Shown: positions 68-5,479 of the stretch, piece after piece
Layout of the letters: every line of letters starts with the position of its first letter
Numbering within the stretch: the stretch's first letter is position 1
Assembly (NCBI GenBank): GCA_030608985.1
Contig: JAUWDC010000096.1
Coordinates: 1-5,718, forward strand
Origin: Desulfobia sp.
GTDB lineage: Bacteria > Desulfobacterota > Desulfobulbia > Desulfobulbales > SURF-16
DNA length: 5,718 bases
Direction: 5' to 3'
Made by a program: the position numbers and the translations under genes
Notes under the pieces: generated by a model
The model's input: the letters and a program-made list of their open reading frames with translations, nothing else
The model's database searches: none
What the model was told of the DNA's origin: nothing

Positions 68-83
68 TGGCACTTCAGTTGCA
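68..83 (+). promoter_or_regulatory. sigma-54 (RpoN) -24/-12 promoter
   Basis: The + strand reads TGGCAC at 68-73, a five-base spacer, then TTGCA at 79-83. This matches the sigma-54 consensus TGGCAC-N5-TTGCA at every conserved position, and the invariant GG (69-70) and GC (81-82) are exactly 10 bases apart as required. Transcription would begin near position 94. RpoN promoters need an upstream enhancer-binding protein. The only symmetrical site seen upstream is GTTAT-N6-ATAAC at 25-40, which is too weak to assign to a regulator. Downstream there is no + strand protein gene, only a terminator about 100 bases away, so the promoter probably drives a small RNA. One such match can occur by chance in AT-rich DNA, but the fit and the terminator make that less likely. 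Confidence 0.7.
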
Positions 84-93
84 ATAATTAAAA

Positions 94-217
94 AGCAAGA
101 ATGATAAACTTTGAGGGTTTAACATAATAAAAAATAATAAAAATTAAGAGAGAAACCGCTCAATAGTTATTTATTCCATAAGGGGAGCAGGGTCTGACGA
201 TCCTGCTCCCCTTTTTG
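94..217 (+). ncRNA. candidate sigma-54-dependent small RNA
   Basis: This is an inferred transcript of about 125 nt, bounded by the RpoN promoter (68-83) and the intrinsic terminator (179-216). Its body is very A-rich and looks unstructured (roughly 118-170, many AAU/AAA runs), followed by a GC-rich 3' hairpin and U tail. That is the general architecture of Hfq- or ProQ-type trans-acting small RNAs. The only ATG-led frame inside is eight codons (101-127) without a ribosome binding site, so it is unlikely to be an mRNA. It converges on the radical SAM gene ending at 229 and would be antisense to any read-through from that gene. I recognise no known RNA family; it does not resemble Qrr or GlmY/GlmZ sequences as I recall them. 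The alternative is that the terminator simply ends a long 3' untranslated region of a gene left of the window. Confidence 0.5.
179..216 (+). terminator. Rho-independent terminator
   Basis: A perfect 11-bp stem, AGGGGAGCAGG (181-191) against CCTGCTCCCCT (202-212), encloses a 10-base loop. It can be extended by A-T pairs at its base (179-180 with 213-214). A T run follows on the + strand (212-216, then GTTT), so its orientation fits ending a + strand transcript. On the minus strand the hairpin is followed only by TTATGG, so it would be a weaker terminator for the radical SAM gene, which ends 13 bases away. Confidence 0.87.
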
Positions 218-2968: not shown

Positions 2969-3123
2969 GTAAGAGTTCACCAGCACCTCATCTTCGTCCA
3001 TTTTGGCCTGTCTCACATAGAAGGGCTATAGTTCGAAGTCCCAAACGAACAAATCTAAGGCACTGGTAACCTCCTACAGCTTCGAGTTTCACCTAAAGTT
3101 TATAGCCCCTGGTGAACTATTAC
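2969..3123. mobile_element. 155-bp IS66-type miniature inverted-repeat element
   Basis: The ends are GTAAGAGTTCACCAG (2969-2983) and, read inward from the other side, GTAATAGTTCACCAG (3109-3123), identical at 14 of 15 positions. A perfect 8-bp direct repeat flanks them. IS66-family elements begin with GTAA and duplicate 8 bp, so the assignment rests on both features. The element has no transposase frame and is far too short to be autonomous. Internally, GGGCTATA (3023-3030) pairs with TATAGCCC (3101-3108), and TCGAAG (3033-3038) with CTTCGA (3080-3085), so a transcript from either strand could fold into a long hairpin. It sits between the convergent tlpA and mut7C genes, where that fold may now help end transcription. 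Its right end carries two in-frame stops (TAA, TAG) used by mut7C. Confidence 0.8.
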
Positions 3124-3923
3124 ATAATACTTTTTGTTTCCCGGCACATTCCCAGGACAGCCTGAAGGTTTGCTTCCATTCCCGATCGATGCGAGCCCTG
3201 CCAATAAACCTGACAGCATGTGTTACATTGATGAAAAACAGTGTAATATTTTCTCGTTAAAGGCTCCAAAAGATGGTCTACCTTTTCTTTTTCCACCCTC
3301 AGCAATTGTCCGTTACACCTGAGACAACGCCTATAAGGCTGAATGAGTCTCTCCAACTGAAATAACTGTACAACATCGACAATTTGCTCAATGGGATCAT
3401 TTACCCTGACAAGATGGCCCCATATTACCTTTTTTCGCTTTAAGAGATTGCAATCCTTACTCAACAGTATACGCTGAGTCTTAGATGCCATCTCGGCCAA
3501 TTCATCATCTTCGAAATTATTTTCGTAAACAGTATCAAAACCGAAAATCCTTAGCCATCGTGCAAGTTTTCCAACATTGACGTCACACATAAACTTAAAA
3601 CCATGGGGTAATGCGGGACGAATCCGAGAGGGGGAGAAAAAATCAGTCTGGCTGGAAACAGGATACACCTTGATCCTGTCTGCCGGCATTACAATATAGG
3701 AAAAATCAACCTTATTGGCATTATTAACAATTATACGATCAATTTCTGTGTGTGGAACTCCTAGTGATTCTATGAGATCTTTAATTGATGTTTTTCGCTC
3801 AAGCTCATAAAGCAGATCCGATTGCCCTCTGAATGTCCTTGAAAGCAGTTGCGGTAGATAGCCGTGAAATGAGAGCTCAACAGAAGAACTATCTATTTCA
3901 GATGCATTTTTCTTGAGAGACAT
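3120..3923 (-). CDS. Mut7-C family RNase with ubiquitin-like N-terminal domain
   Basis: A 267-residue protein of three parts. Residues about 14-90 form a beta-grasp, ubiquitin-like domain of the kind fused to Mut7-C proteins (VELSFHGYLPQLL ... IKVYPVS). Residues about 108-190 are the Mut7-C PIN-like nuclease core, with FMCDVNVGKLARWLRIFGFD (acidic D114, then K119, R122, R125), the DDEL cluster (D139, D140, E141) and LLSKD (D157), which would coordinate metal. A zinc ribbon with C200xxC203 and C233xxC236 follows and ends in YWQGSH. The family is predicted to act in RNA metabolism; the substrate is unknown. The gene follows the pseudouridine synthase gene on the same strand but is separated from it by a 150-bp repeat-bearing gap. 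Its ATG has no Shine-Dalgarno. The stop codon comes from the inserted miniature element; before insertion the protein would have ended Ile-Ile-Leu instead of Ile-Met. Confidence 0.9.
   Translation of the reverse strand: MSLKKNASEIDSSSVELSFHGYLPQLLSRTFRGQSDLLYELERKTSIKDLIESLGVPHTEIDRIIVNNANKVDFSYIVMPADRIKVYPVSSQTDFFSPSRIRPALPHGFKFMCDVNVGKLARWLRIFGFDTVYENNFEDDELAEMASKTQRILLSKDCNLLKRKKVIWGHLVRVNDPIEQIVDVVQLFQLERLIQPYRRCLRCNGQLLRVEKEKVDHLLEPLTRKYYTVFHQCNTCCQVYWQGSHRSGMEANLQAVLGMCRETKSIM
3124..3131. repeat. right 8-bp target-site duplication ATAATACT
   Basis: The second copy of the 8-bp direct repeat, directly abutting the right terminal repeat. Read on the minus strand it encodes the last complete codons of mut7C (AGT ATT and the first two bases of the final ATG). 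Confidence 0.8.
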
Positions 3924-3934
3924 AGGATGAAGTC

Positions 3935-4049
3935 GTAAAAACTATAAATTAACCACAGAGCACACAGAGACCACAGAGAAATTTTTTTCATTACAAGCAG
4001 TTGCCTCTGTGATCTCTGTGTGCTCTGTGGTGAGAAAAAGACTTTTTAC
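3935..4049. repeat. long palindrome of tandem 9-bp CACAGAG units
   Basis: Two 27-bp arms (3952-3978 and 4005-4031) are complementary at 26 of 27 positions around a 26-base loop. Each arm is three tandem 9-mers: ACCACAGAG, CACACAGAG and ACCACAGAG on the left, and their complements with one substitution on the right. A further 7-bp inverted pair, GTAAAAA (3935-3941) and TTTTTAC (4043-4049), lies outside and may mark the ends of the unit. From memory, CACAGAG-rich palindromes are dispersed between genes in many environmental bacteria, so this is probably a REP- or MITE-like element. It fills nearly all of the gap between the pseudouridine synthase gene and mut7C. RNA from it would form a very stable hairpin but has no U run after it, so attenuation or mRNA stabilisation is more likely than clean termination. 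Confidence 0.85.
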
Positions 4050-4074: not shown

Positions 4075-5019
4075 TTATGAATGTTTTCTTAAGGTATCAA
4101 GAATGACCTGCATGTCTGGCCACAGGTTTGAGGAGAACAGCATCCTTTCACCTGTTCTGGGGTGATCGAGAGAAAGCGTTGAGGAGTGAAGACATTGCCT
4201 GTCAATCTTGAGCAGACCACTATTCTTTTTACCGTACAGTTGGTCTCCGGCGACTGGGCAGCCCATGGAAGCCATATGGACACGAATCTGATGTGTCCTT
4301 CCTGTTTCCAGACGAAGTTTCACAAAAGAATAGGAACCAAAAACTTCTTTAACTTCCCAAAGAGTGACGGCATGCTTCCCGCCATTCTCCAACACAGCCA
4401 TTTTTTTCCTCTTCACAGGGTGCCGGCCAATGGCTGACTCTATTTTTCCAGAGGTGACTCGAGGGACACCTGCAAGGATAGCATGGTATATTTTTTCAAC
4501 AGATCTGCTCTGGAACTGTTGCGCCAGTCGATGATGAGATAGATCATTTTTTGCTGCAACCATGACCCCGGACGTATCCTTATCGAGCCGGTGGACTATC
4601 CCTGGCCGCAGTTCCCCGCTAATACCAGACAGGTTACAACAATGATAAAGCAATGCATTGACCAGGGTACCTGAATCATGACCATTAGCAGGATGAACGA
4701 CAAGTCCAGGTGGCTTGGATACGGCAATTAAATCATCATCTTCATAGAGAATATCAAGAGAAATACTCTCAGGTAAGAGAGAAACTGCTTGAGGGGGAGG
4801 AATTGTGATGATTACCGTATCATCACATTGGAGTTGATAGCCGCTTTTTTTTTCCTGATCGTTGACCAGAATATTCCCAGCGCGAATGAGTTTCTGAATT
4901 CTGGAGCGAGTAAGAGATAAAAATTCGTCCAGATCAGCTACAAAAAGATCAAGCCGCTTACCTTTTTGATGGGGAGTGATGCGAAAAAGATACTTTTCCT
5001 CAGGCAAAAACTTTATCAA
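4075..5019 (-). CDS. rluD: RluA/RluD-family 23S rRNA pseudouridine synthase
   Basis: A 314-residue protein of normal RluD length. An S4 RNA-binding domain occupies about residues 18-75 (KRLDLFVADL ... RSRIQKLIRAGNILVND). The catalytic domain has LIAVSKPPGLVVHP (97-110), the signature HRLDKDTSG (143-151) with catalytic aspartate D146, and the RTHQIRVH motif (241-248). RluD makes the pseudouridines in helix 69 of 23S rRNA; other RluA-family targets cannot be excluded, so the symbol is by family resemblance. The likely start is TTG at 5017-5019, which lies 20 bases inside the carD coding region. The frame has an in-frame TAG only four codons upstream and no ATG or GTG until well within the protein. 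A short-spaced GAGG (5023-5026) lies 3 bases before it. Translation is probably coupled to carD. A second TTG at 5005-5007 is the alternative. Confidence 0.92.
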   Translation of the reverse strand: MIKFLPEEKYLFRITPHQKGKRLDLFVADLDEFLSLTRSRIQKLIRAGNILVNDQEKKSGYQLQCDDTVIITIPPPQAVSLLPESISLDILYEDDDLIAVSKPPGLVVHPANGHDSGTLVNALLYHCCNLSGISGELRPGIVHRLDKDTSGVMVAAKNDLSHHRLAQQFQSRSVEKIYHAILAGVPRVTSGKIESAIGRHPVKRKKMAVLENGGKHAVTLWEVKEVFGSYSFVKLRLETGRTHQIRVHMASMGCPVAGDQLYGKKNSGLLKIDRQCLHSSTLSLDHPRTGERMLFSSNLWPDMQVILDTLRKHS

Positions 5020-5479
5020 TATCCTCTTCTACCTGTTCTTTTTTAATATGATTTGCAATCGCAATCTCGGTCATCAGAAGACTCTTGGCAGTATCCATCA
5101 TCTTTCTTTCACCAAAGGAGAGTTCCTTATCTTCCTTTAATAAATAAAGATCACGTAATACCCCTGCTATTTCATATAAAGAACCTGTTTTTATCTTTTC
5201 CATGTATTTGCGATAACGCTGATTCCAAGGACGTGCCTCAATTTCAGTGCCTTTTTCTTTCAATATATCGAATACCCTGCTCACTTCGTCAGAGGCGATA
5301 ATCTCTCGAAGCCCTACACTGTCGGAACTTACTGTCGGAACCATGACAGTCATATTTGAATCCAGTATATGCATCACATAAAAGGCCTGCTCTAGATCCC
5401 CAATTTTTTTGGTTTCAATATTTGTTATTTCGCCTACGCCATGGGCTGGATAGACAGCCATGTCACCTTTATTAAACAA
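5000..5479 (-). CDS. CarD/CdnL-family RNA polymerase-binding regulator
   Basis: A 159-residue protein matching the length and plan of CdnL-type CarD proteins. The N-terminal RNA polymerase-interaction (Tudor-like) domain is FNKGDMAVYPAHGVGEI ... YVMHILDSNMTVMVPT (2-49). A helical DNA-contact domain follows, with the conserved tryptophan W85 in ARPWNQRYRKYMEK and the LLKEDKELSFGERKMMDTAKSLLMTEIA helix region (113-140). Such proteins bind the RNA polymerase beta subunit and stabilise open complexes, especially at rRNA and growth-related promoters. The start is TTG at 5477-5479, chosen because the family begins MFxxGD and because AGGGGG (5486-5491) sits an ideal 6 bases upstream. An ATG at codon 7 (5461) would delete the conserved first strand. 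It leads a minus-strand set with the pseudouridine synthase, overlapping it by 20 bp. Confidence 0.93.
   Translation of the reverse strand: MFNKGDMAVYPAHGVGEITNIETKKIGDLEQAFYVMHILDSNMTVMVPTVSSDSVGLREIIASDEVSRVFDILKEKGTEIEARPWNQRYRKYMEKIKTGSLYEIAGVLRDLYLLKEDKELSFGERKMMDTAKSLLMTEIAIANHIKKEQVEEDIDKVFA

Follow-up and report, generated by a model that had tools for sequence, protein, structure and literature searches.

A candidate genus-restricted, multi-copy family of sigma-54-driven small RNAs in Desulfobia

Does an exact sigma-54-type promoter that leads into an intrinsic terminator, with only an eight-codon reading frame between them, mark the gene of a small RNA? The question is raised by the left end of a 5,718-nucleotide stretch (the window) that makes up a whole contig (G000:C107) of the draft Desulfobia genome G000 (1.69 Mb in 327 contigs, 70.5% complete), which we compared with relatives including G001, a 3.0-Mb sister genome of the same genus. 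From these sequence comparisons we judge it probable, at roughly 0.75, that window positions 94 to 217 (+ strand) encode a ~124-nt member of a genus-restricted, multi-copy family of sigma-54-driven small RNAs that likely act in trans. This extent draws on two covariance models (R1 and R2, below), with the ends placed from promoter spacing and a T run.

The contig starts 67 bases before the -24/-12 site, leaving the left flank outside it, and the candidate unit sits within 228 bases left of the stop codon of a B12-binding radical SAM gene (229 to 1743, - strand; PF04055 and PF02310), a convergent neighbour that lies outside the RNA. The frame list and Pfam place beyond it genes for PilZ (1847-2212, +), a thioredoxin-like protein (2380-2964, +), Mut7-C (3120-3923, -), pseudouridine synthase (4075-5019, -) and CarD (5000-5479, -). 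A MITE-like stretch at 2974-3118 has terminal inverted repeats AGTTCACC/GGTGAACT, and a DNA search turned up many similar copies of part of it across this genome and its relatives. At 3945-4040 stands a long inverted repeat in which ACAGAG units abound and whose Rfam microRNA-precursor matches, on both strands, all fall below the gathering score. Searches with the radical SAM protein returned none among viral contigs and one match among named genomes, labelled a Nitrospirae MAG; metagenomes hold proteins 84-94% identical to it. The source names of its homologues put the genome near Desulfobulbaceae: P0005, labelled 'Desulfobulbaceae bacterium', agrees with the G001 protein over 150 residues compared by eye.

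The exact RpoN-type promoter motif claimed by the sequence-only reading is present at 68-83 (+), with TGGCAC at 68-73, the spacer TTCAG at 74-78 and TTGCA at 79-83; the C of the -12 GC falls at 82, so that +1 is expected at ~94. We gauged how often such a site arises by chance. Within the window, 2 matches with up to two mismatches to the motif compare with an expectation of 1.9, which leaves the exact match as the sole informative one there. Genome-wide, exact TGGCACN5TTGCW occurs 4 times in G000 and 10 times in G001, against 0 for a reversed-pattern control in each, and TGGCAYN5TTGCW with up to one mismatch, counted on both strands, gives 129 sites in G000 (36 for the reversed control) and 244 in G001 (67 for the control). 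Exact sites in G001 precede genes with ammonium transporter, nitrogenase-type oxidoreductase and flagellar rod Pfam domains, which suggests that the motif marks plausible RpoN genes; for the nitrogenase-type gene the mechanically called frame begins before the site and an ATG comes after it. A TGGCAT site in the same genome precedes a small frame and a sodium:solute symporter gene. Some exact matches are no promoters: open frames contain 2 of the 4 in G000 and, of the 10 in G001, those on C134 and C211. RpoN (PF04552) was found in 24/24 genomes searched, G000 and G001 among them.

A DNA search of 58 genomes gave a single convincing match, in G001 (E 6.3e-24); the runner-up, in another genome, reached E 0.002 over 24 bases. 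This orthologue (G001:C14:237-379), 79% identical, retains promoter, body and terminator, and adjoins an orthologue of the radical SAM gene whose protein is 67% identical; the start of its contig (L003:1-60) resembles a group II intron end. Covariance model R1, made from the window and G001:C14 transcripts with the promoter left out and run on 257 genomes of the order, then recovered three paralogues: G001:C28:5750-5869 (E 1.4e-11), G000:C155:3135-3260 (3.7e-8) and G001:C2:275-400 (8.4e-8). On sequence, the co-conservation check proposed earlier came out positively, with promoter, body and terminator kept together in the orthologue and in the three paralogues that the promoter-free model recovered. 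The family thus counts five members in two same-genus genomes, two in G000 and three in G001. C155 and C2 form an orthologous pair, with a penicillin-binding protein gene ending beside either copy, and the C28 copy lies near a cation efflux gene; the five loci represent three different neighbourhoods, and two orthologue pairs plus one single copy indicate three lineages and two subfamilies. For three of the copies a contig end is less than 300 bases away. G001:C28:5346-5467 (L161), upstream of the C28 member, holds a degenerate-looking extra unit (22.4 bits) with a hairpin GAGCC...GGCUC, an A-rich loop, a terminator and GG-N9-GC; left out of the member count, it is possibly a decaying tandem copy.

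Conservation around the site is concentrated in the promoter core. GG-N10-GC is present in 5/5 members, with GG 24-25 bases upstream of the covariance-model start (24 at the sites of C28, TGGCACAACGGTTGCA, C155, TGGCATAACCCTTGCT, and C2, TGGCGCACTGCTTGCA), and GGC and TTGC are the sole invariant runs of at least 3 bases within 81 around the site. In gapless, site-anchored alignment, mean pairwise identity among the five is 1.00 for TTGC, 0.77 for TGGCAC and 0.40 for the spacer, with 0.33 for the 52 bases upstream and 0.46 for the 14 bases after the site. The G001:C14 site, CGGCAT-ACCAG-TTGCA, departs from TGGCAYN5TTGCW at one position and may be a weak promoter.

The five members share a predicted fold: a basal stem, in which a GAAUAA-type strand pairs with UUAUUC, then an upper stem, a loop of 28-32 nt and a terminator. 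In the window (+ strand throughout) the basal stem pairs 99-104 with 171-176, with 100% of cells paired across the five members, and the upper stem pairs 113-120 with 153-161, with two pairs changed on both sides. The apical loop between them (121-152), predicted unpaired and a likely contact site, is 69% A in the window and 48-69% A across the five members, has 17% G+C and starts with AAC in 5/5. The predicted intrinsic terminator (180-217) was described by the sequence-only reading as perfect-stemmed; its same-strand 15-pair hairpin (180-213, 9 pairs G-C, loop of 4) and T run (212-216, then G, then TTT) stand, but one pair is by eye a G.U wobble. Folding z-scores were -7.2, -6.8, -7.1, -6.0 and -4.1, with 0/200 shuffles as stable for each, much of the folding energy coming from the terminator. 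In an alignment of the five (A5), 92.7% of 150 cells are standard pairs, against 47-58% when slid by 1-3 columns; the structure tested here was derived from those same five sequences, which biases the outcome in its favour. Both partners differ in eight pairs, of which five belong to the terminator and three (17-72, 25-62 and 26-61) do not. The covariation score (0.383; shuffled mean 0.246) was matched by 0/500 shuffles, the count of pairs changed on both sides by 11/500 and that of further pair types by 114/500. The eight-codon frame noted earlier does lie between promoter and terminator (101-127, MINFEGLT and stop, the only ATG frame), but it is not conserved: its ATG is missing from the other four members, orthologue included, and we reject it as coding.

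Upstream of the promoter, the window carries a candidate dyad, ATTAC-N5-GTTAT, at 15-29 (+; -79 to -65), a pattern match that could be an activator or DNA-bending site. Every member has ATNAC-N5-GTNAT with its start between -82 and -79 (mismatches 0, 1, 2, 0 and 0), and the pattern is absent at that position from 10 other RpoN-type sites. Shuffles have it there with up to one mismatch in 0.3-0.6% of trials and with up to two in 3-6%, so that the C28 dyad, at two mismatches, is weak by itself; the pattern was picked after the sequences were seen, and orthologues are non-independent. Inverted TGGGNGAT-type sites near -170 and -135 are common to the orthologous C2 and C155 loci (L164:1-280 and L162:3255-3560), in a stretch that is otherwise poorly conserved, and C28 has the one near -135; two blocks conserved between C2 and C155 lie at ~-170 (TGGGNGATATGNCGC) and ~-140 (GGGGATTNTCNCCCA). 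These sites and blocks are candidate activator sites on sequence grounds. De novo comparison of the upstream regions stayed mostly at chance level, the best shared 16-mers having 11-14 identical positions against 11-13 in shuffles.

How far does the family extend? Model R2, built from all five members, scored the three paralogues at 112-124 bits, the best other place in the 257 genomes reaching 43 bits, and the covariance models gave no convincing member in the other 255 genomes of the order, under Infernal's stricter filters, which lose weak matches; a search labelled as class-wide covered the same number, 257, and probably added no breadth. A wider distribution was considered, with R1 matches at E<=1 in 42/257 genomes and R2 matches in 31/37, and rejected, as no inspected match had a site at -24. 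Among 15 R1 places inspected outside the genus, 4 had GG-N10-GC within 70 nt, the nearest GG lying at -26 without TTGC; among 24 R2 places (13 within the genus, a further one in C28 and 10 elsewhere) 4 had it, the nearest at -35; and three weak R2 matches (E 1.2e-5 to 9.2e-4) had no site at the right place. By eye, the inspected weak model matches are mostly terminators behind genes. A pattern search and quick look at 28 other loci beside the radical SAM gene in other genera (30 fetched) found nothing of the kind; the pattern matched once, as CGGCAAACCGGTTGC in L031, within apparent coding sequence. A plasmid search with the RNA region gave just two 32-base matches, both to Paenibacillus (E 0.04).

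Three other explanations of the locus were weighed. The same small RNA could be transcribed from an ordinary sigma-70 promoter, the -24/-12 match being coincidental or secondary, and the window does contain TGGACA-N19-AATAAT, which matches at 10/12 positions, ends at -5 and fits the spacing. Across the five members, however, the best sigma-70 matches agree at 10, 8, 7, 9 and 5 of the 12 positions, their spacers being 19, 18, 16, 17 and 19; such matches are unconserved whereas GG-N10-GC is kept throughout, and we regard sigma-70 transcription as improbable. Still less probable is that there is no small RNA gene at all, the hairpin being the terminator of the convergent radical SAM gene, whose stop codon is 15 bases from the hairpin end, or of a left-hand gene that could hide beyond the nearby contig start, with the promoter motif there by chance. 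The T run lies 3' of the hairpin on the + strand, and the terminator scan lists none there on the - strand; body and stems are conserved, beyond the hairpin alone; and the entire promoter-body-terminator unit recurs at the 3' end of the penicillin-binding protein gene and near the cation efflux gene. An outcome that the sequence-only reading had named as speaking against it, a terminator that ends a left-hand gene while the -24/-12 motif is lost, is not what we see: the core is retained, and terminator and promoter also occur together next to other genes. A mobile or repeat element that carries promoter and hairpin by chance might finally be suggested by several diverged copies, three of which are close to contig ends, in a genome with dispersed repeats such as 2974-3118. 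Yet the copies differ, upstream of the site and the dyad excepted, about as much as unrelated DNA would, two loci have orthologues in both G000 and G001, terminal inverted repeats of the unit were not seen by eye, and pairs covary, so that this reading is the least credible of the three.

Under the preferred reading of a sigma-54-driven small RNA family, RpoN polymerase is predicted to transcribe from the site at 68-83 and to stop at the hairpin at 180-213, giving an RNA with a two-part stem, an A-rich loop and a terminator. One promoter plan among different neighbours suggests one activator and one function in several copies: a single enhancer-binding protein would activate all copies at once, perhaps by way of the dyad near -72. 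Action in trans is likely, and the exposed loop would then make the contact. Hfq and ProQ are the usual partners of small RNAs. Pfam models, which could miss distant homologues, found Hfq (PF17209) and ProQ (PF04352) in 0/24 genomes, namely the window's own and relatives, 20 of them >=90% complete and <=5% contaminated; control positives were 5/14 and 1/14 named genomes, respectively. These absences weaken the standard base-pairing model. A variant compatible with the preferred reading, which we think possible but unlikely, is that the loop decoys an RNA-binding protein; CrcZ, for comparison, is longer than the present RNA. The high A content of the loop in all five members would suit a decoy, as would the precedent of CrcZ, CrcY and CrcX of Pseudomonadaceae, which are described as RpoN-dependent and paralogous with A-rich motifs, several per RNA, that capture Hfq-Crc (PMC6292655, in excerpt); here, by contrast, Hfq is among the proteins not found, and there is one loop per RNA against six A-rich motifs named for CrcZ/Y in that excerpt. 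On balance we lean modestly towards an RNA that pairs with U-rich leaders of mRNAs rather than one that captures an RNA-binding protein.

The covariance-model search against Rfam that had been proposed for the unrecognised RNA gave nothing in the window above gathering score; the highest-scoring match to overlap the small RNA region was to a Bacteroides sRNA model on the opposite strand, at 29.9 bits where 80.4 are required. At three paralogue loci and three loci of the second RNA described below, one match had E<=0.1, likewise on the opposite strand (34.7 bits, with 60 required). Rfam includes a model for Qrr, an RNA that needs Hfq, and Qrr was absent from the 18 Rfam matches with E<=5 in the window and from the E<=0.1 matches at the three paralogue loci. 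The Qrr RNAs of Vibrio share with the present family a sigma-54-type promoter, on which their transcription depends (PMC10162802), and multiple copies, four or five in some species (PMC5568312), as given in excerpts of these papers; the Rfam model sets them apart, as does their work with Hfq, found in 0/24 genomes here. Pxr of myxobacteria, in excerpts of PMC5568312, likewise combines an apparent sigma-54 promoter, a stem-loop RNA (108-nt gene) and paralogues, each with its own sigma-54 promoter in Cystobacter, but its description (mostly three stem-loops and a fixed place beside nla19) differs from one two-part stem with a large A-rich loop at dispersed loci, with no nla19-type regulator among the neighbours in sequence. 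CrcZ/CrcY (PMC6292655) and, apparently, Pxr (PMC5568312), as excerpted, also count against the earlier statement that few RpoN-dependent small RNAs are known outside enterobacteria and vibrios. Dv_sRNA2 of Desulfovibrio vulgaris, compared by description only, is a sulfate reducer's small RNA under a response regulator, DVU0679, and differs in lying downstream of its own regulator gene (PMC3333781, in excerpt). FopS of Bacteroides, associated with RbpB, is a small RNA family in several paralogous copies that differs in sigma factor, copy number (14) and length (~65-70 nt) (PMC11697453, in excerpt). The main text of the D. vulgaris sigma-54 regulome (PMC4641369) lacks the words sRNA, small RNA and noncoding, and our literature search returned no description of such RNAs in Desulfobulbaceae among the matches listed, in the excerpts they offered.

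A second sigma-54-type RNA came to light beside exact sites at G000:C8:13226 and G001:C47:6163, each followed by a terminator-like hairpin within 60 bases. Unrelated to the first and ~80 nt long, it was traced at G000:C8:13226-13330 (L158:1227), G001:C47:6163 (L159:1164) and L229-L242. A DNA search of 58 genomes matched its promoter-RNA part in many genomes, most other matches hitting a dispersed repeat at the query's far end. Fourteen loci picked by eye among the matches listed, with the two genus copies, gave 16, spanning at least nine genera and three families. TGGCA stands in 16/16, followed at the usual spacing by TTGC (11), TTGT (3), ATGT (1) or GTGC (1), and after the site all 16 have the core CTC[T/A]TATCTCCTTTCTCC and an apparent hairpin (two were folded). 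In the RNA this core, CUC[U/A]UAUCUCCUUUCUCC, is complementary to the Shine-Dalgarno sequence, with one variable position in 16/16 aligned loci. Frames read by eye place it beside fliL/fliM in several loci and an aconitase-like gene in others, and Rfam gave no match at the three loci tested. The fliL genes carry an identical sigma-54-like site, TGGCATACTATTTGCC, at G000:C8:12734-12749 (-) and G001:C47:5641-5656 (-), which points divergently from the second RNA. Tentatively, and with slightly less than even confidence, we propose that an order apparently without Hfq and ProQ (0/24) has a sigma-54-run small RNA layer made up of the A-rich-loop family and this anti-Shine-Dalgarno RNA of at least nine genera; if so, promoters would tie both RNAs to the sigma factor of motility and nitrogen.

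The candidate family adds an RNA without an Rfam match to the short list of sigma-54-driven small RNAs, and its data on site, stem, loop and spacing yield direct predictions for RNA-seq and reporter tests. Its occurrence in a lineage without detected Hfq or ProQ raises the question of how base-pairing or decoy RNAs work without their usual partners, and its diverged copies, with one promoter plan among different neighbours, offer a natural experiment on small RNA duplication.
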